Source: Flaviflexus huanghaiensis
GTDB lineage: Bacteria > Actinomycetota > Actinomycetes > Actinomycetales > Actinomycetaceae
Direction: 5' to 3'
Length of the DNA: 64,000 nucleotides
Assembly: GCF_014118685.1 (NCBI RefSeq)
Contig: NZ_JACFAK010000003.1
Span: 62,001-126,000, forward strand
Below are positions 37,846 through 55,330 of this stretch, one piece after another. Position 1 is the stretch's first letter. The number at the start of each line of letters is the position of its first letter. Position numbers and translations under genes: made by a program. Below the pieces are notes generated by a model, which worked only from the letters and a program-made list of their open reading frames with translations, had not been told where the DNA came from and made no database searches.

Positions 37846-40800
37846 CACCCATCCCTACAGGCGCGGGGAACACTTTCCGTATCCCGTGACCTCCAGCAGG
37901 AGCGTGGGCTCATCCCCGCAGGCGCGGGGAACACGGCGAGTGTGAGAATTCCGAGGATGATCTGCAGGGCTCATCCCCGCAGGCGCGGGGAACACCCGTA
38001 TAGGGCGACGAAACGGTCGCGCATTCGCGGCTCATCCCCGCAGGCGCGGGGAACACCGCGGGGCCTTGACCCTGGCCATGTTGCTCAGAGGCTCATCCCC
38101 GCAGGCGCGGGGAACACCCTGGCCCGTACACGTGGCGCGCGCTCCAAGAGGGCTCATCCCCGCAGGCGCGGGGAACACACCATGAGGGGCCTCCTGTGCG
38201 GTTACGCGAAGGGCTCATCCCCGCAGGCGCGGGGAACACAGATCGCCGCCCTCACGAGACACCGCCCGTGGGGGCTCATCCCCGCAGGCGCGGGGAACAC
38301 ATCTCCCGCCGACGGCGGCCACCCGTCGCAGGGGGCTCATCCCCGCAGGCGCGGGGAACACATCAACGCGATCACCACCCAAATGAGCGTCAAGGGCTCA
38401 TCCCCGCAGGCGCGGGGAACACTCGAGCACCTTCCCGCCCGGCGTCTTGTCCGCGGGCTCATCCCCGCAGGCGCGGGGAACACTACCTGCAAGACCTGAA
38501 GGCGCGGATCGACGGCGGCTCATCCCCGCAGGCGCGGGGAACACGGCCGGCGCGGCCCCTACGCTTGCTGGCACGCAGGCTCATCCCCGCAGGCGCGGGG
38601 AACACCTTGGCTGTCGCCTTGTCTCCGGAGTCGAAGGAGGCTCATCCCCGCAGGCGCGGGGAACACCCGTAGAAGTCGTAGCGGACGGTCAAGTAGACGG
38701 GCTCATCCCCGCAGGCGCGGGGAACACCTCGCCGGACCCTTGACAGACGCGGTCAGTGGCGGCTCATCCCCGCAGGCGCGGGGAACACTGCTGTAGCGGC
38801 GTGCGGTGCCGGGCTGGAGTGGGCTCATCCCCGCAGGCGCGGGGAACACATGTGCAGAGAGTCATCATTGTCTCCTTTTGTGGGCTCATCCCCGCAGGCG
38901 CGGGGAACACAATCTGGGCGGCGGACAGTATCGCGGTTCGTGCGGCTCATCCCCGCAGGCGCGGGGAACACTGCTGTAGCGGCGTGCGGTGCCGGGCTGG
39001 AGTGGGCTCATCCCCGCAGGCGCGGGGAACACACAGCGCGAGGGTGCTTGGCAGGACGTTCGTCGAAGGCTCATCCCCGCAGGCGCGGGGAACACACCTG
39101 GAGGACCGCGGCGGCACGCGCCGCCACAGGCTCATCCCCGCAGGCGCGGGGAACACGGCATTGTGACCGGGTACATGTGTGATCCGACGGGCTCATCCCC
39201 GCAGGCGCGGGGAACACTTCACCGTCCCGCTATCCGGCGCGCCCGTCAGCGGCTCATCCCCGCAGGCGCGGGGAACACTCTTGAGCTCGACCTCGGCCCC
39301 GACGGCGGCAGGGCTCATCCCCGCAGGCGCGGGGAACACATGACTGGAGTGCCACCCGCGATCGACGTCGCGGGCTCATCCCCGCAGGCGCGGGGAACAC
39401 CCAGTAGGGTACGGGCGATAGGCGTAGCGGGTAGGCTCATCCCCGCAGGCGCGGGGAACACCTCCCCGACAAACAATTCCGCACAGGCTCCAGGGGCTCA
39501 TCCCCGCAGGCGCGGGGAACACCGACATAGTAGACCGGACCAGACTAGCGCCGCAGGCTCATCCCCGCAGGCGCGGGGAACACCCAGCCTCGGACCGTGC
39601 GGAGACTGGTCCCGCAGGCTCATCCCCGCAGGCGCGGGGAACACTCCGCCCTCCCACACACGGGAAGGTGGGGGCGCGGCTCATCCCCGCAGGCGCGGGG
39701 AACACCCATGTGAGGAAGCCGGTGCATCCTGACTTGGGGGCTCATCCCCGCAGGCGCGGGGAACACTCACACTCCAATTCTCCGGCCACCCACTTCGAAG
39801 GCTCATCCCCGCAGGCGCGGGGAACACCGACATGGAGATAAGTGAGCAATGGTCCTACTAGGCTCATCCCCGCAGGCGCGGGGAACACTTTGCGTTTGTC
39901 TACCGCCGCCAGACCATGACCGGCTCATCCCCGCAGGCGCGGGGAACACCCCGGCCCCTACACATGGACGGCCGTCCAGGAGGGCTCATCCCCGCAGGCG
40001 CGGGGAACACAGCCCTCCCCTGATCCCGAACTCGTCGTCCGCGGGCTCATCCCCGCAGGCGCGGGGAACACACCAAAGGAGAAAAAAATGAACCTATGCG
40101 TATGGGCTCATCCCCGCAGGCGCGGGGAACACTAGCGCAAGCGGACGGCGCGGTCCTTACGCCTGGGCTCATCCCCGCAGGCGCGGGGAACACGAATATA
40201 GTGGAGCCGGAGAATGATACAATACGGGCTCATCCCCGCAGGCGCGGGGAACACCCGTCCGGTCTAGGTTTTTAGTGACGTAGAACGGGCTCATCCCCGC
40301 AGGCGCGGGGAACACGCCCCGATCTTCGACACGGCGACCAACACGACGTGGCTCATCCCCGCAGGCGCGGGGAACACGGTGAAGACTGGTGACCCGCCTC
40401 CACGACGCCGGGCTCATCCCCGCAGGCGCGGGGAACACGGGTTGACCTGGCAGACGATGAAATTGCGTACAGGCTCATCCCCGCAGGCGCGGGGAACACG
40501 ACACGTACATTTTTGTCTCCTTTGGTGGTTAGGGCTCATCCCCGCAGGCGCGGGGAACACCTGATCTGTCTCGCTGGAAGGGTCTCGTCACACGGCTCAT
40601 CCCCGCAGGCGCGGGGAACACTGACGCGTCCTTTGATCGGGCGCGTGCGGCGGCGGCTCATCCCCGCAGGCGCGGGGAACACCTGGCCGGGCTCAGGGAC
40701 GGCACGATCAAGGGGGCTCATCCCCGCAGGCGCGGGGAACACATCGGCGCGTGGCGCGGGCGATCCCCTGGTGAGGGCTCATCCCCGCAGGCGCGGGGAA

Positions 40801-42755
40801 CACACGTCGAGGCTGGCGCGGCCCCCATCGGCGGGGGGCTCATCCCCGCAGGCGCGGGGAACACATCGACCACCCGCGCCCCCGCAAGCGGCAATCGGGC
40901 TCATCCCCGCAGGCGCGGGGAACACGCCCTTCGTGGGGGCCGTCCATCTGGCCCGCGGGGCTCATCCCCGCAGGCGCGGGGAACACAGTGTCGCCAGGAG
41001 CCTGGAAGAAACCTACACGGGCTCATCCCCGCAGGCGCGGGGAACACACCAAAGGAGAAAACGATGAACTTGTGTACATGGGCTCATCCCCGCAGGCGCG
41101 GGGAACACTTCGTGCGGCGGGGCTGTCAGTGATTGCGCCGAGGCTCATCCCCGCAGGCGCGGGGAACACAACTAGGACATAGCGCTCATGCTCGTAGTCG
41201 TAGGCTCATCCCCGCAGGCGCGGGGAACACGGCATAGTGACGGGGTACAGCAGGGAGCCGACGGGCTCATCCCCGCAGGCGCGGGGAACACCTGTCCTGT
41301 CTAGGGCTTTATGGATGTAGAACGGGCTCATCCCCGCAGGCGCGGGGAACACGCGGGTACTGAGATAATGAAACTCATTTGTTAGGGCTCATCCCCGCAG
41401 GCGCGGGGAACACGAGAGAGAAAGACAGTGAACGAAACCGAGCGCAGGCTCATCCCCGCAGGCGCGGGGAACACAGGGTGAGTGCTTCGCCGCGCTCCTC
41501 CCGCCGCGGCTCATCCCCGCAGGCGCGGGGAACACTTTAGTTCTCTTCCTTGATGGTCCAAGTGGCGGGGCTCATCCCCGCAGGCGCGGGGAACACTAGC
41601 GCAAGCGGCAGGCGCGGTCCCTATGCCTGGGCTCATCCCCGCAGGCGCGGGGAACACACTAAAGGAGATAAAAATGAATTTATGCGTGTGGGCTCATCCC
41701 CGCAGGCGCGGGGAACACCTGAGATTACTGACGGAGGACTGATGATTACGGGGCTCATCCCCGCAGGCGCGGGGAACACTGTTTCGTCGTGCGGGTCACC
41801 ATTCACTAACCAGGCTCATCCCCGCAGGCGCGGGGAACACCAACCGCCCTCACCCGCGACGAACTCATTGACGGGCTCATCCCCGCAGGCGCGGGGAACA
41901 CTACCGCTATGGCGCGATATGACGGAGCTGCAGGGGCTCATCCCCGCAGGCGCGGGGAACACGGGTCGACCTGGCAAATGACGAAGTTGCGTACAGGCTC
42001 ATCCCCGCAGGCGCGGGGAACACCGGGCTCATGCGGACACGCTCTCGGAGCAGGGGGGCTCATCCCCGCAGGCGCGGGGAACACGGTCCGGTCTACTATG
42101 TCGCCCATGGTGGCGGCGGCTCATCCCCGCAGGCGCGGGGAACACCCCGTGCCGGGGGCGGCGCGGGGGCTGTAGGTGGGCTCATCCCCGCAGGCGCGGG
42201 GAACACACCTGGGACCTGTCCGATTTTGACACGGACCGGGGCTCATCCCCGCAGGCGCGGGGAACACGTCTCTTTTTCTGTCACTCTGTGACCTCAATAA
42301 GGCTCATCCCCGCAGGCGCGGGGAACACCCCGTGCCGGGGGCGGCGCGGGGGCGGTGGGGGGGCTCATCCCCGCAGGCGCGGGGAACACCCCTGGTGAGT
42401 TTCTGCAGCGGGCCGGGGGTGCGGCTCATCCCCGCAGGCGCGGGGAACACCAGTCCGGGTCACTTTGCGCATAATTCCGGGGGGGCTCATCCCCGCAGGC
42501 GCGGGGAACACGGCCCTGCTCACCCTGGGGACCTTCCGGCCCGGGGCTCATCCCCGCAGGCGCGGGGAACACGTAATGCTTACTGCAAAGCCCTCTAGCG
42601 AGGGGGGCTCATCCCCGCAGGCGCGGGGAACACTGTTTCCAGCCGTTGACGAGGTAGGGGAGGGCGGGCTCATCCCCGCAGGCGCGGGGAACACAGTGGG
42701 ACAGTCACCGACCCCGAAAACGTCGTGGGCTCATCCCCGCAGGCGCGGGGAACAC
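37846..42755 (-). CRISPR. Type I-E CRISPR array, 80 identical repeats plus one degenerate, 80 spacers
   Basis: 28-bp repeats on a 61-bp period. On the plus strand each begins GGCTCATCC and ends CGGGGAACAC. On the crRNA (minus) strand it begins GTGTTCCCC, forms a CCCCGC/GCGGGG hairpin with a 4-nt loop, and ends GATGAGCC, as in type I-E. I counted 80 perfect copies (37907 to 42755) and one degenerate copy (37846-37873, five mismatches). Spacers are 33 nt except 35 nt at 39033, 34 nt at 40316 and 32 nt at 40683. The leader side is at 42756, next to cas2; decay is at the opposite end. Transcription toward lower coordinates matches the cas operon. Many spacers are related to each other (see findings). 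Confidence 0.98.
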
Positions 42756-42793
42756 ACTTCCTGAGCAGGTAATACATAGTGTCCTCTATTCTA
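42756..42793 (-). promoter_or_regulatory. CRISPR leader with candidate -10, abutting cas2
   Basis: AT-rich stretch between the first repeat and cas2. TAGAAT (42788-42793, minus strand) is a good -10 with an expected start near 42781. It shares bases with the cas2 stop codon (42786-42788), so only about 30 bp separate cas2 from the array and the rest of the leader must lie inside cas2. Confidence 0.55.
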
Positions 42794-43178
42794 AACCCTT
42801 TAATTGAGAGTTTTCGCCTCCTCTCTTGTTGGAGAAGCGCTGACCGCGCCGATACGAAGCGGCTTTGCTCCAGCCGGGCCTCATCTCCGAGCTTGGAGGA
42901 GCGGATGGAGGAGGCCTCCGCATCAATGTAAGACCATCTATGTCCTCCGGTTGCCAATGGTGGTCCTTGACTCTGAAGCCGAGTCCTTGTTCGGACCTGG
43001 TGGTCCAGATAAGGATGGCCCGCCCAGTTCCAGAGAACTCCTCGACACGGGACCATAGGTGATCTCGTACGCGCGCGCTCACCTTGCCGACGAAAACGCC
43101 GGCAGAGATCTCGTAGAGCCATTTTGTCAGGTCTCCTCTGAGTCCGACTGGACAGGCAGACAGGACCAAGACGATCAT
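42786..43178 (-). CDS. cas2: CRISPR endonuclease Cas2, type I-E
   Basis: 130-residue Cas2e, structural partner of Cas1 in spacer integration. MIVLVLSACPVGLRGDLTKW, EISAGVFVGKVSARVRDHLW and GRAILIWTT align with E. coli Cas2 (94 aa). DIDGLTLM ends the conserved core near residue 87. The remaining 40-odd residues are a basic, Ser/Arg-rich extension not seen in E. coli Cas2; its DNA would overlap the leader. ATG 43178 follows GAGGTG; an alternative GTG at 43190 overlaps the cas1 stop. Confidence 0.93.
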   Translation of the reverse strand: MIVLVLSACPVGLRGDLTKWLYEISAGVFVGKVSARVRDHLWSRVEEFSGTGRAILIWTTRSEQGLGFRVKDHHWQPEDIDGLTLMRRPPPSAPPSSEMRPGWSKAASYRRGQRFSNKRGGENSQLKGLE

Positions 43179-43186
43179 CGCGCACC

Positions 43187-44122
43187 TCACCCGTAGTTCT
43201 GGCCACTGGGCACGCGGCCGTCTGCTCTGCCGGACCAGATCGAGAGTGCCTCGTCGTACGTGATCTGCGGTTCCTCGGCCACTACGGGAAAGAGGTGTCG
43301 AATAGCGTCCACGGTACGCTCCATCGTGCCCTCAGTCATCAGACGGTCGCGAAGAAGCCGACGAACATCGTTGAGTGGGTCGGTTGTCTCTGCTGCAACT
43401 ACATCAAATGCTGCCGGGATGCTGGTCTCGGCTTTGAAGAGATCCGCAATGTCGTAGACAAACGACAAGTCATGTCCCACATGGACGAAACCAAGTCCAG
43501 GTGCCATGCCTAGAGCGTGGATCACGGCAGCGACTACTCCGTAGAGGCACGAGTTGGCGCTCGAGAGGGCCTGATTGACAAAATCAGAGTCCGCAACGTC
43601 TCCGACCTTGTACTGGCGGCGCGACCAGGACACTCCTGTCCTCTCCGACTCAGCGGCATAGATCTTCCTGACGCGAGCGCCCTCTCGTCCCCGTAGTTGC
43701 TGCATTGTGAGACCAGACACGTCCTCGTCCGGAAACCTCATCTCATACATTTCGCGGGCGACGCGAAGCCGAGATTTCTGGCTGGCGAATGAGCGTGCCT
43801 GAGCTTCCAGGAGGCGAGTACTGCGGGCGAGGGGACGGCCCGTGGCATAGCAGCGGACTGCCCCCTCACCTACCCACACCACGCTCGCTCCGGACGCACC
43901 GATAAGGGTCATCGCGGCGTGGGTGATCCTCGTTCCTGGCCCTAGAAGCAGAGCACCAATCATCGCTGTGGGGATGTGGACGGTCCCACGCTCGTCAGTT
44001 GCGGTTAGCGCGTTCGAGTCGCGATGAACGGTGCACCGCTCCAGGTAGACGAACGACAGTCTCTCCGACACCCTCGCCAGTTCCTGGGACTCAGGGGGAG
44101 GAGCGCCATGCATGTCAGGCAC
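43187..44122 (-). CDS. cas1: CRISPR integrase Cas1, type I-E
   Basis: 311 residues. Metal-binding and catalytic residues are in place: Glu147 (RGREGARVRK), His214 (GFVHVGHDLSFVYDIADLFK), Asp224 and Asp227, matching E. coli E141, H208, D218 and D221. With Cas2 it captures and inserts pre-spacers at the leader end. The N-terminal 20 residues are a short extension. It overlaps cas6e by 8 bp and cas2 follows directly. Confidence 0.97.
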   Translation of the reverse strand: MPDMHGAPPPESQELARVSERLSFVYLERCTVHRDSNALTATDERGTVHIPTAMIGALLLGPGTRITHAAMTLIGASGASVVWVGEGAVRCYATGRPLARSTRLLEAQARSFASQKSRLRVAREMYEMRFPDEDVSGLTMQQLRGREGARVRKIYAAESERTGVSWSRRQYKVGDVADSDFVNQALSSANSCLYGVVAAVIHALGMAPGLGFVHVGHDLSFVYDIADLFKAETSIPAAFDVVAAETTDPLNDVRRLLRDRLMTEGTMERTVDAIRHLFPVVAEEPQITYDEALSIWSGRADGRVPSGQNYG

Positions 44123-44801
44123 CGACCTTCATTAGAGTCATGAGTCCGCAACCGTATGCCTTTCCGCGCCCCAAGCCACCGACCAGAGCATTCCTGAACG
44201 CTGTCGCATCAGTTACTCCAAGTTCTCCGACGATGGTGACGTGGCGTTGCGTCACAGTTCTCCGTGAATTCGACTCTGGTTTGGAAAAGGATCGGTCCAA
44301 GCGCTTCACCACTCGTGCGAGCCGTTCATCGCCAGCGCCTTCGTCCGATTCGCTAGGGCGGAGTGGAACATGGAAGCCCCATCGCTCTTCCCGGGAATAG
44401 AACCATGCGAGCTGCTGGTCTTCTGTGACGTGGGGTACCAGCTTTCCCCTGTTGCCGGGAACGAACAGCCTCTTGACCGGATTTACGGTGACGCGGAACT
44501 GAAATCTCTGTCCGTCCTCAACCTTCTTGAGGAACCGACTGTACTGGAGGCTTTCCCCGGGCGCGGTCTCCCATCCGGCCGCCTCGACAAGGTGGGTCAT
44601 GTCTGGCTCTGTTGGGGAGACGACATAGAGAGTTACTCTGTCGGTCGTCTCATCAACGCGCCAGAGAACCCGATCTGGGTCGGCGTCGTGCTCGCGGGGA
44701 GGGAAGGACGATTCTACAGCCGCATGCATAGCCCGAGGGTTCGCCAGCAGTTTTCGCGCCTCTCGGCGTCGTGGATTGATTGCTAATCGACTGAGATACA
44801 T
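44115..44801 (-). CDS. cas6e: crRNA-processing endoribonuclease Cas6e
   Basis: 228 residues with two ferredoxin-like folds. His26 (RAMHAAVESSFP) matches the catalytic His of Thermus Cse3. The C-terminal glycine-rich loop GGLGRGKAYGCGLM binds the repeat RNA. It cuts the array transcript at the repeat stem base, leaving an 8-nt 5' handle (expected to be GAUGAGCC) and stays bound as part of Cascade. ATGA overlap with cas5e. Confidence 0.96.
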   Translation of the reverse strand: MYLSRLAINPRRREARKLLANPRAMHAAVESSFPPREHDADPDRVLWRVDETTDRVTLYVVSPTEPDMTHLVEAAGWETAPGESLQYSRFLKKVEDGQRFQFRVTVNPVKRLFVPGNRGKLVPHVTEDQQLAWFYSREERWGFHVPLRPSESDEGAGDERLARVVKRLDRSFSKPESNSRRTVTQRHVTIVGELGVTDATAFRNALVGGLGRGKAYGCGLMTLMKVGA

Positions 44802-45505
44802 CAGTCCTCCTTTACGAGTGCAAAGAATGGATCATCGAGCTCTCTGCCTTGGGGATTCCCAACAAGAAGGGGCTCACATCGCGCGATAATGCGTGAACCG
44901 TAGTCTCGTTGTCGAGGATCAAAGGAGAGAGGGACGTCTCTTACAAGATCGCCCGGCTCTCCGGGTTCAGCATCGCGAGAGATCGAAAGGTAAACCTGCC
45001 GGACGGACTGCTGTCGGTACCAGCCTGATGCGAGCCACGGTGTCCTATCAAGGTCGCGAAGGATGCACTCTGTGTCGTCGACGTCGAAGACGCCTCCCAT
45101 CAGATCAACGGGCGCAGGGCATGCTCTCCGTCCTAGGAAGAGGGGAAACCGCGGCGCTGATACGGCCTCAGCGATCTGACGAATGAGACTGTCATCGCCG
45201 GAGACGGCGACGGTGAAAGCAGCATCCGACAGATAGTGCCTCCACGAGAGAGTGGAGTGCTTACTACCTGGAGCCTTCGCAGTGTGGAAATCGACGAGCA
45301 GACGGCCGGGCTGATCCGTTCGCGTGCCCATCCTCAGCTCCGCGAGGTCAGAGACATCCTCCTCTCGGGATCGTCCTAGAGCAGCTGCCAGCAACCCTAC
45401 AATTCCGGACTTGCTCGGCTCCCGCCCAGACTCTCGTGTGGAATAGCGAGAGTCGACAGCCCACGACTGCATAGGCCCTTTCGCTCGAAGTATGAGAGAG
45501 CTCAT
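44801..45505 (-). CDS. cas5e: Cascade subunit Cas5e
   Basis: 234 residues. SSLILRAKGPMQSWAVDSRYSTRESGREPSKSGIVGLLAAALG is the diagnostic N-terminal motif of Cas5e; PLFLGRRACPAP is the second conserved block. It binds the 5' handle of the crRNA and contacts Cse1. The start overlaps the cas7e stop (ATGA). Confidence 0.96.
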   Translation of the reverse strand: MSSLILRAKGPMQSWAVDSRYSTRESGREPSKSGIVGLLAAALGRSREEDVSDLAELRMGTRTDQPGRLLVDFHTAKAPGSKHSTLSWRHYLSDAAFTVAVSGDDSLIRQIAEAVSAPRFPLFLGRRACPAPVDLMGGVFDVDDTECILRDLDRTPWLASGWYRQQSVRQVYLSISRDAEPGEPGDLVRDVPLSFDPRQRDYGSRIIARCEPLLVGNPQGRELDDPFFALVKED

Positions 45506-46650
45506 TCTCCATCCCTGCCCGCGGTCGCATCAGCAGGGAGAGCTGAGTCGAGAGCCTCCAGCAGGTTCTCGATCAGCTCACGCGTGTTTACCTTGTCGCC
45601 AAGGCCCTCGACGTCGTCCTGAAGGCTGGGAACGGCCGCCACCCATTCGTCAAGGGGGGACAGTCCGTAGGTTTCCGCAACTGCCGACGCCTCGGACGCT
45701 AGTGAGCGTGCCGCAAGCTTCCTGCGGTTCTGACCCGAATCCGCTTCAATTGCGGTTTCGAACGCGTTCGCGTAGCTGACCGGTCGCCGGTCTCGCACTG
45801 CGACCGCGACGACCTCGGGCAGAGTATGAGCCGCAAATGTATTCTGCTTGCCGCTCGGGAGAGCTTCAATGAAAGTCGAGGCGAAGGCCTCCAGGGCTCG
45901 CTTCACTGCAGCTCGCGAGCCGAGGTTCGCCATCAGCTGGTCGACATTGACAGTTGCATACCGGTACATCGTCGAGGAGACCATCTCGATCGTGCCAATC
46001 ATACCGGCTCCCGTCTCTTCGTCCGCCCGGCTCATGTCGTCGACCGCAGTGTAGTAGTCGAAATCTGGAACCGCGGCGTGTACACCGAGCGCATGGGCAA
46101 CCTGTGCGCTTGCATCGACGTTGAGCGCCGCATCATCTGCAACCATTCGGCCGAAGAGTGCGACGTCGATAGCGTGCTCTGTGTCGAGAACGGTATGCAC
46201 GTCTTTCTTCGTCAACGCCTTGACGTCCTCGGTCTCGAGGAGCAGGCGGGCGAGGCGCTCGACCTGGTGCTCTCCGAGGAAAACGAGGTATCCAGCGGTC
46301 GGGGGCTTAACGTCCTCGCCCTTCTTGACCTTGGGACTGGTCAGCTTAAAGCCTGCCTTCTCCATCGCTTGACCCGCAGCGGCGAGGGCATCGTCAAGAT
46401 CGATATCGGGATCAATCTGTGTCATGCGCCGCGCGACGAGTTCGACAATGCGCTTCGTCCTCACACCCAGCTCTGAGCTGTCGAGATAGTTCGAGAAGGC
46501 TTTGCGCTGGGCGGCCTTCAGCGCCTGTGACGAAATGCGTTGCCGCTGTACTCCGCCGAAAAAGGCGGACTTCGGGGAGCCGTCTTCGCCTCGGTTCACA
46601 TTGCTGGGAGCGAGAGTGTGGAGAGCGTGAAAATCAATGAAGGTTGTCAT
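45502..46650 (-). CDS. cas7e: Cascade backbone subunit Cas7e (Cse4)
   Basis: 382 residues from ATG 46650. FIDFHALHTLAPSNVNRGEDG, KSAFFGGVQRQRISSQALKAA and AHALGVHAAVPDFDYYTAVDD are typical of Cse4/CasC. Six copies coat the crRNA in known Cascade complexes. It is preceded by AAAGGAAC at good distance. A 55-bp gap to cse2 is the only non-overlapping junction between core Cascade genes. The longer frame from 46851 runs into cse2 and is not homologous. Confidence 0.97.
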   Translation of the reverse strand: MTTFIDFHALHTLAPSNVNRGEDGSPKSAFFGGVQRQRISSQALKAAQRKAFSNYLDSSELGVRTKRIVELVARRMTQIDPDIDLDDALAAAGQAMEKAGFKLTSPKVKKGEDVKPPTAGYLVFLGEHQVERLARLLLETEDVKALTKKDVHTVLDTEHAIDVALFGRMVADDAALNVDASAQVAHALGVHAAVPDFDYYTAVDDMSRADEETGAGMIGTIEMVSSTMYRYATVNVDQLMANLGSRAAVKRALEAFASTFIEALPSGKQNTFAAHTLPEVVAVAVRDRRPVSYANAFETAIEADSGQNRRKLAARSLASEASAVAETYGLSPLDEWVAAVPSLQDDVEGLGDKVNTRELIENLLEALDSALPADATAGRDGE

Positions 46651-46705
46651 GTCAAATGTTCCTTTGCTGTTTTTGTCAGAATTTCTACGTTGTCTCGGTG
46701 GTCGG

Positions 46706-47326
46706 TCAGAGCGTGGAGACTTCTTCGGTCTCCCTTTCAGGTGCCCACGAAAAGGCTCTGTAAAAGTCACGGCCCCATGTGCGGAGCACACTGGACCGGA
46801 ACTTCCCAAACTGGAGCCGATAGATGTCGTTCGCGAGACGGCCGTAGTCAAGGCCGATTGCTCGCGAGCTCGTGCTGTCTGTGGCCATCAAGCCGATAAG
46901 AGCCCTAAGGTAGTGTCTGCGCGTGGCGAAGTTTGTGGCGGAGAGCAGGGCATCGTACGTGCGCTTGGTCGACTCGGTGCGGCCTCGTAGGAGGGTCCCC
47001 GCGGCCGAGCCGAAGCTCTGTCCGACGACATGGACTGGGCGAACGTTCCCCCGCTGGTGTACCGCATAGAGGGTGAGTGCCAGATGACCGGCCCATTCCC
47101 CGGCGGTGGGTTGGTCCCTGCGCCCGATGTACTTCTCTGGGAGAGCCTCCAGAACCATCTGCCAGACCTCGGGGCTCTCTCCGGGGTCCTCATTGACGGC
47201 TCTGCGCAGGACCGCCAGCTTTCTGCGGGCAGACGGATCCCCGGCCTCGAGGAACTGATGCTGCAGTCGAGACACTGCCTGGCCGATTCCGTCACTCAGC
47301 TGTTCCGATTGATGGGTGTCGTTCAC
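46706..47326 (-). CDS. cse2: Cascade small subunit Cse2 (Cas11)
   Basis: 206-residue, all-helical small subunit. DPSARRKLAVLRRAVNEDPGESPEVW, EWAGHLALTLYAVHQRG, RRHYLRALIGLMA and DYGRLANDIYRLQ are family landmarks. Two copies usually stabilise the R-loop. Four-base overlap with cse1. Confidence 0.94.
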   Translation of the reverse strand: MNDTHQSEQLSDGIGQAVSRLQHQFLEAGDPSARRKLAVLRRAVNEDPGESPEVWQMVLEALPEKYIGRRDQPTAGEWAGHLALTLYAVHQRGNVRPVHVVGQSFGSAAGTLLRGRTESTKRTYDALLSATNFATRRHYLRALIGLMATDSTSSRAIGLDYGRLANDIYRLQFGKFRSSVLRTWGRDFYRAFSWAPERETEEVSTL

Positions 47327-49017
47327 GATGCTGCTCCTTCTTTATTGGAATTCTGCTTTGCGTCTCTTCTAGAGTTCGCCGATGCGGTCGGGCGGGCTCC
47401 GGTCATCTCTCCCAGCTTCCGCATGATCCACGCTTCATAGCGCGCCGACGAATGGAGAATCTTGTTGCCGTTCTCGTTGACCTCGAGTCGGCCCACCGCT
47501 GCTCGAGGGCCGGCGGCCTCTACCGCAGACCGAATTTCTGCCGCTGACACGCGCCACATGATCGCGCGCCACTGCTTGTCCGCCTCGTCCGCGTCAATCC
47601 CGATGGAGAGGGTCGAGAGCCACTGCACGAACTCCTTCTCGAGAGCGTTGAGCCATGCCTGGACTGGCCCCGTCGGTTCGTCTTCTGGTGACGCGCCACC
47701 GCACATGAGGAGCTGCTTGAGGAACCACTTCATACTCCCGCGGAACGACATGATACGATCCACGGCGCGAACAGCGACGCGTCGCATGTCCGCGCCATGG
47801 CGGAGGAGGAGTGACATGCTGACCGGAATTTCGTCGAAGATTTCGCCTGTGAGGATGGCGTCCTGGGTTCCGTACTGTGCCCCGATGAGCCGCAGCCCAA
47901 TCGTTTCGCCGCCGAAGTCCCTCGAGAGCTCCTCGCTCATGTCCTGCTCAGCACCCAGGAGGAGCGGGGCCTTGCGGCCCTTCTCCTTCTCGGCGGCACT
48001 CTCCTCGAAGATGCCCTGGATGCCACGCCAGACGGTCAGCTCCGCGTCGTGCGTTCTAGGGAAGTGGACCTCGACACCGCCCTTTGACTGCGCTTTTGAG
48101 TAGCGATAGCCGGTGCTTGGATCGAGAAACATGTTGGAAACCTGGATCTTGTCGCCGTTCGATATGACGGTGTGGGTGACAGCGGTCCCTTCAGCATTTG
48201 GGACAAGGCGAACCCTGCGCTGCTGCCAGGTCAGGAGATCCACTAACCCATTGGGAATTTGTGCGTCGAGATCTCTCGGCGCGGCCGTGTCCGGCTTTCG
48301 CTCCCACGGCGGGAGATCGCGGAACTGCTCGCGCTGGGGGACGACGAGATCAGTCATCGGAATGTTGAGGACCAGGGTGTCTCTCAGGTTCCTGCCGACG
48401 ATCTGAACGGCTCCGATAGCACCGAGCCACCCGGTGCCAATCCCGTAACCCTTCCCATTTTTCACGCGGGGATCTCCGACGGCCCCGGTCTTGATGCCAG
48501 AGGTGTCGTACGCGTGTAGTCGGACCAGCCAGCGTGCCGCAAGAGCGGGAGAAAGCTCGCTGCTGGTCTCCTGCGTAGACGTGGAGAACAGCTGCGGGCC
48601 GACGTCGGGTACCAGCGTGGACGCGGGTTTGACCTCATCCTTCATGCTCCGCAGGTCGGAGACCTGATAGAACGGGGCGACGCTGTCGAAGAGATCGAAC
48701 CGATCTGCGTGTTTCTCCAGGTACCTCCGTGTGGTTGACCCGAGGTCTGCGAAGCGCACATACGCCCAGCGCTCGCCCAGAGTAAAGGTGTCGTCGATTT
48801 CGTCGGCATCGCGAACGCCCCGGATGATGATGGCCTGCAGCAGGCGCAAGATTGAGAAATTTTGCGTCTGCGATTCGCCGCCGAGGTCTGTGTAATCGTC
48901 GAGGTGTGAGAACAGGTGATAGAGACTCACCTCCTCGTTCACACCATCGATTGATCTGACTTTTACCCAGGGCTCAGTCAGCAGGTTGAAGCTGGAGCCT
49001 TCTTGTTCCGTCACCAT
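47323..49017 (-). CDS. cse1: Cascade large subunit Cse1 (Cas8e)
   Basis: 564 residues from ATG 49017, which has GAGG seven bases upstream; ATG 49023 and GTG 49014 are alternatives. FNLLTEPWVKVRSIDG is the Cse1 signature start. RLLQAIIIRGV and the C-terminal four-helix bundle with MRKLGEM follow. It recognises the PAM and recruits Cas3. Overlaps cas3 by 7 bp. Confidence 0.95.
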   Translation of the reverse strand: MVTEQEGSSFNLLTEPWVKVRSIDGVNEEVSLYHLFSHLDDYTDLGGESQTQNFSILRLLQAIIIRGVRDADEIDDTFTLGERWAYVRFADLGSTTRRYLEKHADRFDLFDSVAPFYQVSDLRSMKDEVKPASTLVPDVGPQLFSTSTQETSSELSPALAARWLVRLHAYDTSGIKTGAVGDPRVKNGKGYGIGTGWLGAIGAVQIVGRNLRDTLVLNIPMTDLVVPQREQFRDLPPWERKPDTAAPRDLDAQIPNGLVDLLTWQQRRVRLVPNAEGTAVTHTVISNGDKIQVSNMFLDPSTGYRYSKAQSKGGVEVHFPRTHDAELTVWRGIQGIFEESAAEKEKGRKAPLLLGAEQDMSEELSRDFGGETIGLRLIGAQYGTQDAILTGEIFDEIPVSMSLLLRHGADMRRVAVRAVDRIMSFRGSMKWFLKQLLMCGGASPEDEPTGPVQAWLNALEKEFVQWLSTLSIGIDADEADKQWRAIMWRVSAAEIRSAVEAAGPRAAVGRLEVNENGNKILHSSARYEAWIMRKLGEMTGARPTASANSRRDAKQNSNKEGAAS

Positions 49018-52010
49018 TCCCATTCCTCGTCTGTGAATTCATCACTGTCGTAGTCCTCTTGCCATTTCTTGGGTTCGTTCATGCCGCGTGGCCCCTCGGC
49101 CCGGCGCAGCCCCACCTCGTTGTTGTAGCTGAATCGCCTTCCCAACAGCTCTCCTCCAAATTTGGAATCAAGACGCAGTAGGAGCTGGCCACGTAGCCTG
49201 AAGTCCGCTTGCCAGGCAGCTATACCGGACTTCTCCAGGTGCTCAATGGCCTGATCAATAGAGCGTCCTGGCGGCACAAGCCATCTGGGCAACCGGATGA
49301 GGCTGGAGGCAAGAGCCTGAGAAACCGCGCGCGGCGGCACATCGAACTCGCCGAGAAGCACTTCTTCATCTCCCGGCGTTAGCCAGGGCAACGGTGAAAC
49401 ATAGCCGTCGCGATCCCACACGAGGAGCACCTCGAGGCCGGGCTCGATATCACGAACATGAGCCGCCGCGCTGACATCGGAACGGGCGGCATCAGATTTG
49501 ACCATCGCCTCTAATGCATAGTTCATGTTGCCGTGACTCGCTGAGGGTGCTTTCGTCTGGAACTGCGCGGCCTTATGCCTCGAATGCTCCGCTTGTGACT
49601 GCTCCATCTCCATCGCAGCTCCGTACGGTTCGCGCCACGCGAGCGGAACCTCGAGAACGGGTGAGTACGTCTTCTCCACCAGAGCGTCGAGATCATGCAT
49701 AAGGCAGAGTGAGTCTGTGAGAAATGGAGTAAGCACCGCTAAGGAGGCGAGCAAGACTCGCTCCCCGTAGATCGCCAGTGCCCCGCTGTCGAACTCTGGA
49801 ACATCGCCTGTGACGTCGACCCCGCGGAGGTAGAGTCGCGGTTCTCGAAGAGTCGGTGGCCGGTCAGCGAAGGGGCGATTGTGTCGGTGGAGTCTACCTG
49901 CCCTTTGAAGTAGCGCGTCGGTGGGAGCGAAATCCGAGACAATCACGTCGAAATCGATGTCGAGGGACTGCTCGAGGATCTGAGTCCCCACGACGATCCG
50001 ATGCTGGGGGCGTCCCGATCCACGATGAGCGTCGGGGCCGAGGCGTTCGACAAGTTCGCGCTCCCGTTCGGCTCGGTCGGCGAGCGTGAACTGGGAGTGG
50101 ATGAGTTCGATGCCCGACGTTCCATAGCGTTCGGTAAGGGCGTCGAACGCATCTTGGGCCCTCTGGACGGTGTTGCACACTACGCCAAGAACTCCGCCGT
50201 CAGATTCTGTGAAGCCAGCCGCTCCGATAGCCTCGATCAGGTCTTCCGGTGCAGGCCTGATCGTCAGGAGTCGATGTCCTGCACGCTGGTCGATCTGCAT
50301 CTGCCGAATACCTTGACCATCCGCCAAAGTCAGTCGTGGGTACGGTACGCGCTCAGTGGCTTCCTGCTCACCTGCTTCGATTTCCTTCGCTGCTTTACGT
50401 GCTTTGATCTTTGCAAGGAGAGCGGTTCTATCTGTCGCTCGGGCGGTTTCAGGGAGATATGTCTTGCCCAGACCGTTCCTGTAGGCGTCTAGCAGTCTGC
50501 GTCGAATGCTCGACGCCAGTGTGGCCGAGAGTACAACGACAGGCACTCGCTGCGCGGCCAGCCAGGTCAATGTTCTCTCGAGGTAGCTCGAGGTGTAGAC
50601 ATCGTATGAATGGACTTCGTCGATGATGACGATCTTGCCGGCAAGGCCGAGATGACGAAGGGTCACATGCCGAGTTGCGAGCGCGGCCATAAGAATCTGG
50701 TCGACCGTAGTGACGGTGAATTCCGCCAGCAAGCCCTTCTTCCCCGTGAACCACTGATGGGCGATGACGGAAGAATCGCCGCCATCCGCTTCGATACCGC
50801 GGGTTCTCCGCCGAAGCCGCGCGAATTCTGGATTGAGCCGTGAACGGGAATGGCCCAAAAAGATCGAGTGGTCTCCGTCGGCTTCTCGGACGAGCGATTC
50901 CGCCCATCTTTCGAGGCGACTGAACATCGCATCGGTCGTCGCCATCGTCGGCAGGGCAAAGGCCACGCCTCCGGCACCTGTGTGCCCGGCAATTATTTCG
51001 GCTGCCAAGAGGGCTGCCTCGGTTTTACCCTGTCCCATCTCTTCTTCAATAATGACCAGTGTGGGACCGTCGATTCTCGACACGGCTTCGACAGTTCGGC
51101 TCTGGACTGGGCGTAGCTCGGCCTGCTCGGGCCAGGAGAAGCGGTCCCTGAAAGGAGGCATGACGGTTTCGGAAGCAGTCCAGCTTCGCGTCATTCCCAA
51201 TCGTTCGAGAGCTTCTTCTGCTCTGGAATCATCCGAGGAGTGTCGGCCTGAATGGGATAGTCCGAAAAGCTCCTGGTTCGAGGCTATCCAATCAGCCGTT
51301 GTGACGAGGCCGGAGAGCAGAATCTGGTCCGGAAGTGGAATTCCACCGCTGGCCAGCACGCGCCCCAGAACGCTCCGGGCTCCAGTTCTGTCCACGATAT
51401 CGGAGATCAAATCCTCCCAACAGTCTCGCCATGATGCACTGTGCTGGCGGAGCCAATCCTGGAACGAGCTCTTCGGACTGTGGTCTCGCAAAGACAGGCC
51501 GCTTGGTTTTCCGTGGTGACATCCCGCGATGCCGCTGAGTGAGGCAATCGCCGCTGGATCCGCCTCGGGGAACTGCTCTCGGATCCAGTTGGCCAGTATG
51601 AGATCGGAGTAGAGCGAGTGGGGCCTCCGCAGGAGAGGATCGGCGAACTTCTTCTCCATGTCATGGGCCTCGAGAATCGCTGAGCTGAGCCTCCTGAACT
51701 CGGGATGCCAAGCCAACTGCCCCGCGAAATGAAGCTCTGCCTTGCCGATGTCATGGGTGCCTGCGAGCCACGAGACAAGTGCTATTGCCGATTCGAGGTC
51801 GCCGGCGAGGTCAATGAGCCTTCTGCGCAGCGCGTTTGCGATCCACTGATCAACGAGCAGCCCCCCAACATCTGCGCTGTCACGCAGATGTTGGCCCAGT
51901 GAGAGCCAGAGATCTCGATCCATGTCGGCATCGTTGCTCGACATGAACCTATCGGGCGTCTTCGCCCAGAAAAGCCATGATTTCTGACCAAGCGCCAACG
52001 TATGCTCCAT
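49011..52010 (-). CDS. cas3: CRISPR nuclease-helicase Cas3, type I-E
   Basis: 999 residues. The N-terminal HD nuclease has THDIGK (His86, Asp87, Lys90), CHHGK (His165, His166) and TADW (Asp239). The SF2 helicase has Walker A MGQGKTEAA (325-333), DEVH (464-467), LSAT (494-497) and QRAGRLHRH. The C-terminal domain ends with an acidic tail. It nicks and degrades the displaced strand after Cascade binds. First gene of the cas operon; ATG 52010 has only a weak ribosome-binding site. Confidence 0.97.
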   Translation of the reverse strand: MEHTLALGQKSWLFWAKTPDRFMSSNDADMDRDLWLSLGQHLRDSADVGGLLVDQWIANALRRRLIDLAGDLESAIALVSWLAGTHDIGKAELHFAGQLAWHPEFRRLSSAILEAHDMEKKFADPLLRRPHSLYSDLILANWIREQFPEADPAAIASLSGIAGCHHGKPSGLSLRDHSPKSSFQDWLRQHSASWRDCWEDLISDIVDRTGARSVLGRVLASGGIPLPDQILLSGLVTTADWIASNQELFGLSHSGRHSSDDSRAEEALERLGMTRSWTASETVMPPFRDRFSWPEQAELRPVQSRTVEAVSRIDGPTLVIIEEEMGQGKTEAALLAAEIIAGHTGAGGVAFALPTMATTDAMFSRLERWAESLVREADGDHSIFLGHSRSRLNPEFARLRRRTRGIEADGGDSSVIAHQWFTGKKGLLAEFTVTTVDQILMAALATRHVTLRHLGLAGKIVIIDEVHSYDVYTSSYLERTLTWLAAQRVPVVVLSATLASSIRRRLLDAYRNGLGKTYLPETARATDRTALLAKIKARKAAKEIEAGEQEATERVPYPRLTLADGQGIRQMQIDQRAGHRLLTIRPAPEDLIEAIGAAGFTESDGGVLGVVCNTVQRAQDAFDALTERYGTSGIELIHSQFTLADRAERERELVERLGPDAHRGSGRPQHRIVVGTQILEQSLDIDFDVIVSDFAPTDALLQRAGRLHRHNRPFADRPPTLREPRLYLRGVDVTGDVPEFDSGALAIYGERVLLASLAVLTPFLTDSLCLMHDLDALVEKTYSPVLEVPLAWREPYGAAMEMEQSQAEHSRHKAAQFQTKAPSASHGNMNYALEAMVKSDAARSDVSAAAHVRDIEPGLEVLLVWDRDGYVSPLPWLTPGDEEVLLGEFDVPPRAVSQALASSLIRLPRWLVPPGRSIDQAIEHLEKSGIAAWQADFRLRGQLLLRLDSKFGGELLGRRFSYNNEVGLRRAEGPRGMNEPKKWQEDYDSDEFTDEEWEW

Positions 52011-52295: not shown

Positions 52296-52512
52296 GCGTC
52301 GGGTGGCGCCCATCTTACCGGCAAGCGGCGCCCGCACACGATGCCTCGCGTGAGATCGGGTCCGCGGCGATGCCAGACTTCCTGACTCGTGGCCGAAGCG
52401 CGCCCGACGATCTGACGTCACGAGTGCGAGGTCTCTTCGCGGCGGCTGAAGAAGTTGTCGCCCCGAAGCCGGCGCCTAAACCCGTCGGCGACTGTCGTGG
52501 CAGATGCAATTT

Positions 52513-53862
52513 TCAGATGGTGAAGACGCCGTTGATCGATGCCAGCGCAATAAGCATCGACACCCCCGCGATCGACCAGACAGCGGTGGTACCCCACGGC
52601 CGGCGGGAGGCGATGATCGCGATGATAGCGATAGCGAGGGGAACGAGGGCGATGGAGTAGCGGGTCGCAACATTCGCGAAGTACTCGTCCCTTGTGACGA
52701 TCTCCCGCACCTGGATGAGGACCGGAACGGTGAGCATGCCAGCGAGGAGCGAAAGGCCGAGGATGAAATCGCGGCTCTTCGGTTGGGAAAGCCACATGAT
52801 GATGAAGGGGGAGGCAGCGATGAGGAGCGCCATGAGGCGCGAGAACGCCGCCCATTCGGGCGAGTCCAGCTCGTCAGGCATCCAATAGGGGCTGACAATC
52901 CCGAGCCCCGTTGCGAAGGTCTCGACTATTGGTGTCCCCGGACCTTCAAGCAGTTCGAGGGTCGACAGTCCCGCAGCAGGGTTGTCGATCGTCTGCGGGC
53001 CAGCCGCGCGCGTGAGAAGCGTTGCACCGACGAAGGACACCGCGGCGCCGAGCGCCGCCCCCATGAAGGGACCCGCCCACCGCCACAGGTCGCGGCCTCG
53101 ACTTTTCACATGAGGGAGAGAGTAGAGCAGACCGACCGTGACAACAGAAAGGATCGCAACGATCGACAGGAGCTTCGTGCTCGCCACAAAGAACGTGAGA
53201 GCGGCAGCCATGACGAAGGCGGGCCTGCCGTCCGCCATTCTCCTCGCTATGGCGATGGCGGCAACGCCGGCGAGTGGTGCAGCAGCATCGGGGCTGATCG
53301 TGAAACCGAAGAGAGTGACGGCTGGCAGGGAGACGAGGAGGAGCGCCGCTCCGAGTGCGAGAGGCCTCCTGTCAATCCACCTGCTCAGAACGACGTAGAA
53401 CGCGGAAATGCCGGTAGCGAGCCAGAGGCTGGACATGATTCTCATCGCGTCAAACAGGTCGAGGTCAGCGACCGGGCTCGCGGCCGCAGTCAGCGCCTGA
53501 GCGCCCCAGCCCGTGACCGCGTAGTACACGAGAGGGTGGAAGCCGTTGTAGTTGACCCCGTCGACCGGGAATTCGTACCGTGTCGCCTTGCCCGTACCGG
53601 CGCGTTCACACAGGTCCGTCGAGTCATCGATCCAGTCGCTGTCGCGGCACGCCCAGGCTTCGAGCGACTCCTCCGACAGCGGCTCGACCGACTTCGGGAT
53701 CGAATGCTCGACCGTGAGCTTATAGGCGTAGTCGAAGTGCGTGATCTCGTCATAGAGCGAGACGCCATCGAAACGGAAGACAGCAGGGATGCAGAGCAGG
53801 AGCGTGTAGAAGAAGATGATGGCGATCGCAGCGCCATCACGGACTCGGGGCGAGAGTGTCAC
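52513..53862 (-). CDS. DUF2142-like polytopic membrane protein (GT-C-like)
   Basis: 449 residues from GTG 53862, which overlaps the upstream stop (GTGA). About 11 membrane segments. The first extracytoplasmic loop has VSLYDEITHFDYAYKL with an acidic DE pair, the position of the catalytic acid in GT-C enzymes, and VDGVNYNGFHPLVYYAVTG with NGFHP. It is a close paralogue of the next gene upstream (shared YDE, NYNGFHP, FVASTKLL, RYSIALVPLA). Possibly a lipid-linked sugar transferase; substrate unknown. Confidence 0.75.
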   Translation of the reverse strand: MTLSPRVRDGAAIAIIFFYTLLLCIPAVFRFDGVSLYDEITHFDYAYKLTVEHSIPKSVEPLSEESLEAWACRDSDWIDDSTDLCERAGTGKATRYEFPVDGVNYNGFHPLVYYAVTGWGAQALTAAASPVADLDLFDAMRIMSSLWLATGISAFYVVLSRWIDRRPLALGAALLLVSLPAVTLFGFTISPDAAAPLAGVAAIAIARRMADGRPAFVMAAALTFFVASTKLLSIVAILSVVTVGLLYSLPHVKSRGRDLWRWAGPFMGAALGAAVSFVGATLLTRAAGPQTIDNPAAGLSTLELLEGPGTPIVETFATGLGIVSPYWMPDELDSPEWAAFSRLMALLIAASPFIIMWLSQPKSRDFILGLSLLAGMLTVPVLIQVREIVTRDEYFANVATRYSIALVPLAIAIIAIIASRRPWGTTAVWSIAGVSMLIALASINGVFTI

Positions 53863-55223
53863 AGTGTCAGCACTCCCGTGGTCGACCCGAGGGCGATAGC
53901 GGCGGTCAGACCACTGAACACCCATGCGGCAGCCGGGCCCCAGCGGCGCTGAGCGAGGACGATCCCCGCGCAGGCGAAGGCGAGGGGAACGATCGTGATG
54001 GCGTAGCGTGCGGCCACACCGTCGAAATACTGCCCATTGGCAATGAGCTGGCGGATCTGAATGAGGATCGGCACCGAGAGGGCCCCTGCGAGCGTGGAGA
54101 GGGCGAGGTTGAATCGGGGATCGCTACCAGGGTGGGCGACGAGGAGGATACCAACGGCGGCGATAAGGAGAAGCCCCGTCACCCGCGCGATCATCGCCCA
54201 CAGTGTTGAGTCCAGCTCACTCGGTAGCCAGTACATGCTGACGAGGTCCGCGTTGATCCCGAGAGTGTCAACGAGAGGCCTCGTGAACGGACCGACCAGG
54301 TGTTCGGTTGACAAGCCGATGATGGGATTGCCCTGCGTTGGCGGGCCCGCGAGCAGGGTGAGGAGCTCGGAGATGAGATGAGACAGGGCGGTGCCAAGCA
54401 CGGCCCCGCCAAAGGGTGCGATCCACGTCAGCTGCCGGTCGTCCTTCCTGAGCCCTCGTAGCAGTGCAACCGTGACGACGGCGAAGATGCCAACGACTGC
54501 AAGGAGTTTTGTCGATGCGACGAGGAACGTGAGAATCGCCGTCGCTCGGAAGGAGGGCCGGCCACGGAAGATTCGGTGAGCAAGATAAACCGCGGCAGTC
54601 CCAGCAAGGATCGCTGCCGCATCCGGATTGACCTGGACCCCGAATGACGCGATGGCGGGTGTCGTCGCGAGTGCGAGAGTGACGGCGAGGCTGAGAGAGC
54701 GGCGCCCCAGCCACATCCGCATCGTCCCGTAGAACGCAAGGAGCCCGGCTGACAGCCACAGGACCGACATGACTCTCATGGCGACGACGAGCGACAGGTC
54801 TGACACAGGGCTCGTCATGGCGATGAGAGCGCGGGCGCCGAGCCCGGTGAGGGCGTAGTAGAGCGGCGGATGGAAACCGTTGTAGTTCACCCCATCTGCC
54901 GGGAATTCCCCGGGGGTAGCCTGCCCAGATTCTGCGAGCGTGCACAGCTCGTCGGTAGGGTTCCAGAGCGTGGGACGGCACGCCCACTCGGCCAGAACAG
55001 CGTCGGAGAGCGGCTCGATCGCACGAGGGACGCGACCCTCATAAGCGATCTTGTACGCATAGTCGACATGCGTCATCTCGTCGTAGAGGGACACCCCGGT
55101 GAAGCGGGAGATGCCGGGCAGACAGATGATCGCGGTGACAGCGACAATGACGAGAGCAACCACGATGTCTGGCACGTGGGGTTGAAGCCGCTGCCGGAGC
55201 GGGAGAGCTGTCTGCGCTGGCAC
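53859..55223 (-). CDS. DUF2142-like polytopic membrane protein (GT-C-like)
   Basis: 454 residues from GTG 55223, chosen because TATATT lies exactly 6 nt upstream and the membrane region begins soon after. A longer frame reaches GTG 55274. About 11 membrane segments, VSLYDEMTHVDYAYKI and VNYNGFHPPLYYALTG as in the paralogue downstream. The pair forms one operon, probably a tandem duplication. Divergent from the S9 peptidase gene. Confidence 0.74.
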   Translation of the reverse strand: MPAQTALPLRQRLQPHVPDIVVALVIVAVTAIICLPGISRFTGVSLYDEMTHVDYAYKIAYEGRVPRAIEPLSDAVLAEWACRPTLWNPTDELCTLAESGQATPGEFPADGVNYNGFHPPLYYALTGLGARALIAMTSPVSDLSLVVAMRVMSVLWLSAGLLAFYGTMRMWLGRRSLSLAVTLALATTPAIASFGVQVNPDAAAILAGTAAVYLAHRIFRGRPSFRATAILTFLVASTKLLAVVGIFAVVTVALLRGLRKDDRQLTWIAPFGGAVLGTALSHLISELLTLLAGPPTQGNPIIGLSTEHLVGPFTRPLVDTLGINADLVSMYWLPSELDSTLWAMIARVTGLLLIAAVGILLVAHPGSDPRFNLALSTLAGALSVPILIQIRQLIANGQYFDGVAARYAITIVPLAFACAGIVLAQRRWGPAAAWVFSGLTAAIALGSTTGVLTL

Positions 55224-55229
55224 ATTGCC

Positions 55230-55330
55230 AATATAGTCGAGGACTCGCCTGTTCCGGCTCCCGCTCTCGCACACGACATCGCCGTTCGTGGCCTCGTGAC
55301 CTCAACGTACAGCCCCGAGGCGGATACGAT
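55230..55330. promoter_or_regulatory. Divergent leaderless promoters
   Basis: Minus strand TATATT (55230-55235), 6 nt before GTG 55223. Plus strand TACGAT (55325-55330), 6 nt before ATG 55337. Neither gene has a Shine-Dalgarno. Confidence 0.55.

Follow-up and report, generated by a model that had tools for sequence, protein, structure and literature searches.

Probable recurrent sampling of diverged targets, among them a putative phage gene start, in the type I-E CRISPR array of Flaviflexus huanghaiensis

Why should a single array hold the start of what looks like the same gene several times over? The question is raised by an array of clustered regularly interspaced short palindromic repeats (CRISPR) in Flaviflexus huanghaiensis, which lies in a stretch of 64,000 nucleotides (assembly GCF_014118685.1, contig NZ_JACFAK010000003.1, positions 62,001 to 126,000); this stretch is the window analysed here, and feature coordinates refer to it. 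In an initial annotation, five of its spacers were thought to hit the ribosome-binding site (RBS) and start codon of one conserved phage gene family, on both strands. Do all five represent one gene? Were they acquired repeatedly from diverged relatives, or did copies of a spacer change in place? Is a gene start preferred as a target? The array is likely to document, in order of time, one infection after another by diverging actinophage lineages, and the start-codon position is probably incidental.

37846..42755, minus strand (putative CRISPR RNA strand): CRISPR array of 81 repeats and 80 spacers (79 distinct), with its leader side at 42756

The repeats comprise 80 identical, perfect 28-mers and one degenerate copy at 37846-37873. 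As the degenerate copy sits at the end far from cas1-cas2, the inferred reading direction starts at 42755 and ends at 37846. All five spacers of the initial annotation are 33 nucleotides long, lie between perfect repeats and are found where it had placed them. The repeat of 28/29 nucleotides, the period of about 61 nucleotides and the adjoining cas1-cas2 are those of type I-E, and a complete I-E set of eight Cas proteins (Cas3, Cas8e, Cas11e, Cas7e, Cas5e, Cas6e, Cas1e and Cas2e) is encoded in one locus on the minus strand; judged by gene content and repeat layout, the locus is a type I-E CRISPR-Cas system. With up to two mismatches allowed, all 80 copies of the repeat in the genome (97.8% complete, in 46 contigs) sit in this array. 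Spacers 16 (38789-38821) and 19 (38972-39004) are identical.

The five start-region spacers read as follows.

38850..38882, minus strand: spacer 17, RBS and ATG-(ATG)-Thr-Leu-Cys-Thr
40072..40104, plus strand: spacer 37, RBS and ATG-Asn-Leu-Cys-Val
40500..40532, minus strand: spacer 44, RBS block alone in common, then Met-Tyr-Val-Ser
41048..41080, plus strand: spacer 53, RBS and ATG-Asn-Leu-Cys-Thr
41658..41690, plus strand: spacer 63, RBS and ATG-Asn-Leu-Cys-Val, synonymous to spacer 37

In spacers 37, 53 and 63, AAAGGAG, an A-rich gap and ATG-Asn-Leu-Cys-(Val/Thr) stand in one register on one strand, with 5 (37/63), 7 (37/53) and 10 (63/53) differences per 33 bases. Three of the differences between 37 and 63 are in the coding part and all three are synonymous, as had been described. 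Spacer 17 covers the same interval on the opposite strand with a 1-base shift and is identical to spacer 53 at 24 of 32 bases. The codons after the start are common to spacers 17, 37, 53 and 63 and absent from spacer 44, which agrees with spacer 37 at 18 of 19 bases in the RBS block (counted by eye) and at 22 of 27 over the whole overlap. Short A-rich RBS-ATG stretches match many unrelated phages (E values of at least 0.3 among the matches listed), so a common RBS block by itself is weak evidence of a common gene. One gene family is therefore supported, as far as the codons tell, behind four spacers (17, 37, 53 and 63) and not five, and spacer 44 may derive from another gene; sampling in both orientations stands through spacer 17, no longer through spacer 44. 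Counted from the leader side, spacer 63 is the 18th, 53 the 28th, 44 the 37th, 37 the 44th and 17 the 64th, and because the five are spread so widely the site appears to have been sampled over the history of the array.

Could the five come from unrelated genes that merely have a strong RBS in common? This holds for spacer 44 as far as its sequence goes, and it fits the matches of such stretches to unrelated phages. For the set as a whole it is improbable, as spacers 17, 37, 53 and 63 agree in the codons after ATG, and the degenerate RBS-start pattern AAAGGAGN{2,8}ATGAMNYTNTGYRYNTG, in which codon 2 may also be Lys, codon 3 Phe and codon 5 Ile, Met or Ala, occurs in 0 of 212 other genomes of the family and 0 of 395 other genomes of the order (the sets partly overlap). 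In the genome of F. huanghaiensis itself the pattern has four matches, all four inside this array.

The start site is one of several that were sampled more than once. In an all-versus-all comparison of 3,160 spacer pairs, 17 similar pairs reached the threshold, whereas 20 spacer shuffles yielded no more than one such pair apiece; the 17 consist of one exact duplicate (16/19), eight diverged pairs in the same register (71/74, 38/62, 43/68, 37/63, 40/57, 37/53, 22/56 and 5/35) and eight other overlaps. The in-register pairs differ at 3 to 9 of 33 bases (9-27%). Ten of their members are the following.

38118..38150, plus strand: spacer 5, PGPYTWRALQE, partner of 35
39157..39189, no strand assigned: spacer 22, GIVTGYMCDPT in the chosen frame, partner of 56
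39950..39982, plus strand: spacer 35, partner of 5
40255..40287, minus strand: spacer 40, FYVTKNLDRT, partner of 57
40439..40471, plus strand: spacer 43, VDLADDEIAY in the chosen frame, partner of 68
41231..41263, no strand assigned: spacer 56, partner of 22
41292..41324, minus strand: spacer 57, FYIHKALDRT, partner of 40
41963..41995, plus strand: spacer 68, VDLANDEVAY in the chosen frame, partner of 43
42146..42178, no strand assigned: spacer 71, in register with 74 (30 of 33 bases)
42329..42361, no strand assigned: spacer 74, in register with 71

When the coding differences are summed over seven pairs (37/63, 37/53, 38/62, 43/68, 40/57, 22/56 and 5/35, in frames picked by the analyst; 63/53, which is not independent, and 71/74 are left out), 13, 5 and 22 of the 40 fall at codon positions 1, 2 and 3. 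Besides these pairs, spacers 28 (39523-39555) and 70 (42085-42117) have 19 identical overlapping bases on opposite strands and therefore represent 47 bases of one target.

Might such pairs instead be duplicated spacers that mutated in place? Exact duplicates do exist, such as 16 and 19, and in a congeneric genome (G003, locus L035, G003:C1:1683000-1698000) spacers 38-40 and 41-43 form a duplicated three-spacer block with one base changed in one copy. The pairs described here differ at up to 9 of 33 bases though 80 repeats are identical, which makes decay of duplicates in place unlikely; third codon positions account for 22 of the 40 differences; and spacers 12, 28/70 and 17 overlap their partners in a shifted position or on the other strand, which is impossible by duplication. 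We give this origin almost no credence. Repeated acquisition from diverged relatives, as the initial annotation proposed, is well supported across the array by the eight in-register pairs, by the third-position bias and by the match of three spacers to actinophage genes described below.

Resampling occurs in other arrays too, and this array is a dense example of a known process: 30 other arrays from related genomes contain 18 in-register pairs (shift of at most 1 base) in about 56,600, as against 8 in 3,160 here. These sums were made by hand, many of the arrays are partial in that the fetched stretch alone was read, the minimum of 8 spacers per array excluded none of the 30, and a G003 pair (60/86) that needs a gap is uncounted. 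In the open-access PubMed Central (PMC) literature, as represented by titles and the beginnings of abstracts, no report was recognised of diverged in-register pairs or of natural start-codon targeting.

The pairs are also clustered along the array. Four of seven link a 7-spacer block with a 12-spacer block, which was equally tight in 35 of 20,000 random placements (block sizes were picked after viewing the data, and pair 37/53 was omitted). This suggests bursts of uptake, possibly by priming. Mismatched targets trigger priming; on this reading the older mismatched spacers 37, 38, 40 and 43 would have set off, through priming, a wave of acquisitions from a diverged relative that gave 57, 62, 63 and 68. 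The block pairing favours such a course, and priming is established for type I-E (PMC6568314). Priming alone leaves unexplained why exactly the same protospacer was taken up again, and we give it somewhat less than an even chance; it is compatible with repeated sampling of diverging lineages and can act beside it.

From what kind of phage do the spacers come? Three of them can be placed in a gene.

38545..38577, plus strand: spacer 12, GRRGPYACWHA, BLOSUM62 score 63, compared with no more than 41 for its own shuffles
40133..40165, plus strand: spacer 38, SASGRRGPYA, 10-nucleotide offset from spacer 12, score 43, compared with no more than 36 for its own shuffles
41597..41629, plus strand: spacer 62, SASGRRGPYA, diverged in-register partner of 38

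Jointly they encode SASGRRGPYACWHA. A degenerate search led to one gene of an uncultivated virus, which reads SASYRHGPYACWHA; relatives of its protein turned up in 20 phage records out of 50,697, every one with an actinobacterial host (15 Streptomyces, 3 Arthrobacter and 2 Mycobacterium; E values up to 0.02, in two records; some phages are recorded twice). A small gene of the Streptomyces phages Jada, TunaTartare and Annadreamy encodes the motif as SASGRRGPWVCWHA. Over the 14 residues covered by the spacers, the R-CWH core and the SASGRRGP stretch assign the spacers to the family of Jada gp264, TunaTartare gp260, Annadreamy gp259 and Racecar gp29, which are uncharacterised and carry the motif SASGRRGPxxCWHA, reduced in Racecar gp29 to GR-G-CWH. 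The phages targeted differ from these four and have the protein motif alone in common with them. The protein of the uncultivated virus had no match at E 0.1 in 72,556 plasmid records, and 213 genomes of the family gave one weak partial match, inside a frame of 646 amino acids, with at most 19 first-look candidates scored per genome in the rows shown.

Several results weigh against a record of diverging actinophages. No protospacer of the five start-region spacers was found in the phage records, in the IMG/VR database or in the 212 family and 395 order genomes, and phage placement among the paired spacers was achieved for 12, 38 and 62 alone: the peptides of 43/68, 40/57, 56, 5/35 and 28 with 70 scored no better than their own shuffles, and that of spacer 22 slightly above them (43 versus 37). 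The score of 38/62 (43) is not outstanding, since an unrelated frame of 16/19 gave 46 in the same scan; the placement of 38 and 62 therefore depends on their in-frame overlap with spacer 12. Pair 40/57 opposes the codon trend (4, 2 and 1 differences at positions 1, 2 and 3), and pair 22/56 changes less in another open frame (2 versus 3 residues). The Mycobacterium phage Fowlmouth, a carrier of the gene family, has an integrase, so carriers of the family are not all virulent. As for the phage gene assigned to the five spacers by the initial annotation, the target was not found in the collections searched, and a phage origin of the five is putative.

Other candidate targets were also considered. 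The RBS-start pattern had two matches in IMG/VR, L037 and L038. L037, with 33% G+C, was taken as a chance match; L038 encodes MNFCTWFPEGWW, with Pseudomonas phages making up 12 of the 23 records that hold relatives. This indicates a distant phage group, and L038 was set aside as an improbable target. The minus strand of L038 encodes, near 2386, a phage protein of 76 amino acids (PHROG 6098, of unknown function) that contains the motif CCxxHDxxY. The pattern VDLA(N/D)DE(V/I)AY had 0 matches in IMG/VR and MGDIVDRTRLA gave 0 matches. GRRGPYA gave 11, the nearest of which, L048 (25 of 33 bases in comparison with spacer 38), was rejected: there the frame is short and the motif leads into a stop, and the locus had itself been fetched via the spacer 38 pattern. 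Among all fetched loci outside the array, L048, L050 and L034 showed 25/33 matches (reversed spacers 0), none of them target-like; in L034 (G002:C8:59884-59907), from a congeneric genome, spacer 49 matches 25 of 33 bases within a membrane-protein-like gene, probably by chance. Actinomyces phage Av-1 had no match above shuffles, and a set of seven phage records, six with the SASGRRGP gene, had nothing convincing for the five spacers. Racecar gp101, which starts MNLCQC, was set aside as a coincidence, 15 of 21 matching records aligning from residue 8 or later. One search of the array against phage records was dominated by the repeat (best 40 of 252 records listed); multi-piece matches of OR845838.1, OR851156.1, JX006077.1 and others suggest CRISPR-like repeats in records filed as phages.

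Are gene starts preferred in general? Under a strict rule, by which a spacer holds both a Shine-Dalgarno sequence and a start codon, 6 of the 79 distinct spacers qualified (the five and spacer 6); 200 dinucleotide shuffles averaged 0.76 and never exceeded 4, and reversed spacers gave 0. The same rule applied to 1,525 distinct spacers of the 30 related arrays gave 21, compared with a mean of 12.95, a maximum of 23 and 13 reversed spacers. A looser RBS rule gives a weaker result, with 14 spacers here, where shuffles average 7.0 and reach 16, and 10 in G003, where they average 10.7. The excess here is mostly one resampled place plus one look-alike (spacer 44), and the related arrays show no clear general preference for gene starts; the position at a translation start, noted initially, is thus seen in the spacers themselves and does not extend to a general rule. 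G003 has another such place: read by eye, its spacers 60 and 86 lie on opposite strands over a single start region, likely of a phage (CTAAATAGGGGA...ATG).

An excess of this kind could arise by selection in place of biased uptake, if uptake is random and spacers at hardly mutable sites (RBS, start codon or conserved motif) are retained since they keep working against new variants. Some sampled sites do look conserved at the protein level, and the strict-rule count of the array points the same way; the related arrays show no clear general retention, and one still-working spacer would make several diverged versions needless, so that selection appears rather unlikely. Type I-E interference destroys DNA at any bound site, and a gene start is therefore unnecessary for function. 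Very unlikely, in our view, is a special use of the site, in which the host keeps or re-acquires spacers at phage starts because Cascade bound there silences an early gene, perhaps a counter-defence gene, despite mismatches, and blocked expression gives cross-protection. The start-codon position is probably incidental, reflecting a conserved A-rich patch with AA-type protospacer adjacent motifs (PAMs) on both sides.

What, then, would bring uptake back to the same sites? As the spacer base at the GG end of the repeat, T occurs once in 79 spacers here and never in 115 in G003, a near-absence that fits a boundary base derived from the PAM; across the 30 other arrays it occurs 50 times in 1,525. 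By eye, AA precedes the start of spacer 60 within G003 spacer 86, TT follows the end of spacers 29 and 50 within G003 spacer 26, and overlapping spacers of G003 yield the PAMs AAC and AAG; in the uncultivated virus, TT follows the position matching spacers 38/62. These flanks suggest a putative AA-type PAM, AAB. If it is AAC, the MNLC gene would, by extrapolation, continue TGT-T. An AAN PAM is reported for a Streptomyces type I-E system (PMC12231136). Type I-E adaptation would take 33-nucleotide pieces beside AA-type PAMs, and when a diverged relative with the same PAM arrives, the same protospacer would be retaken, often in the same register. The start of the Met-(Asn/Thr)-Leu-Cys-(Val/Thr) gene would be one such site, taken up three times from one strand and a single time from the opposite one; a conserved A-rich patch flanked on each side by usable PAMs would let the start codon be sampled incidentally. 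The spacers and their homology, the full cas set and the actinophage match of spacer 12, which 38 and 62 overlap, are directly observed, whereas the PAM, the phage origin of the five start-region spacers, the order of events and the cause of the hot spots are inferred.

How does this compare with known systems? The type I-E arrays of Streptomyces avermitilis are of the same system type, with an AAN PAM compatible with the one proposed here, and 99.5% of 2,104 Streptomyces spacers are reported to have no known target (PMC12231136); the present array differs in its many diverged in-register pairs and in being known from sequence alone. For the element LME-1 in Legionella, recurrent challenge is likewise recorded in spacers, and a priming experiment gave two independent spacers from the same protospacer (PMC5071653); those spacers match a known element, whereas here the versions stand in one array and would come from diverged relatives. 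Type I hot spots similarly focus uptake on certain protospacers (PMC6568314, PMC5059440), but in laboratory experiments, whereas here the same sites appear to have been resampled across diverged targets. The array would offer a case, from nature, of type I-E uptake coming back to the same protospacers while phages diverge; its pairs would reveal sites and PAMs that survive divergence, and its spacers could be used as probes for an unsampled actinophage group.

The cas genes beside the leader side of the array are arranged as follows.

42786..43178, minus strand: cas2e (Pfam PF09707, E 4e-31)
43187..44122, minus strand: cas1e (PADLOC Cas1e, E 2e-129)
44115..44801, minus strand: cas6e (PADLOC Cas6, E 5e-59, and Cas6e, E 6.5e-53)
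44801..45505, minus strand: cas5e
45502..46851, minus strand: cas7e, open reading frame whose domain begins at about residue 70, so that the true start is likely later
46706..47326, minus strand: cas11e
47323..49023, minus strand: cas8e
49011..52010, minus strand: cas3e

Beside cas3, at 52504-55274, lie two open reading frames of 482 and 471 amino acids without a PADLOC match at E 1e-5, and the first of them, that of 482 amino acids, has no Pfam match at E 0.001.

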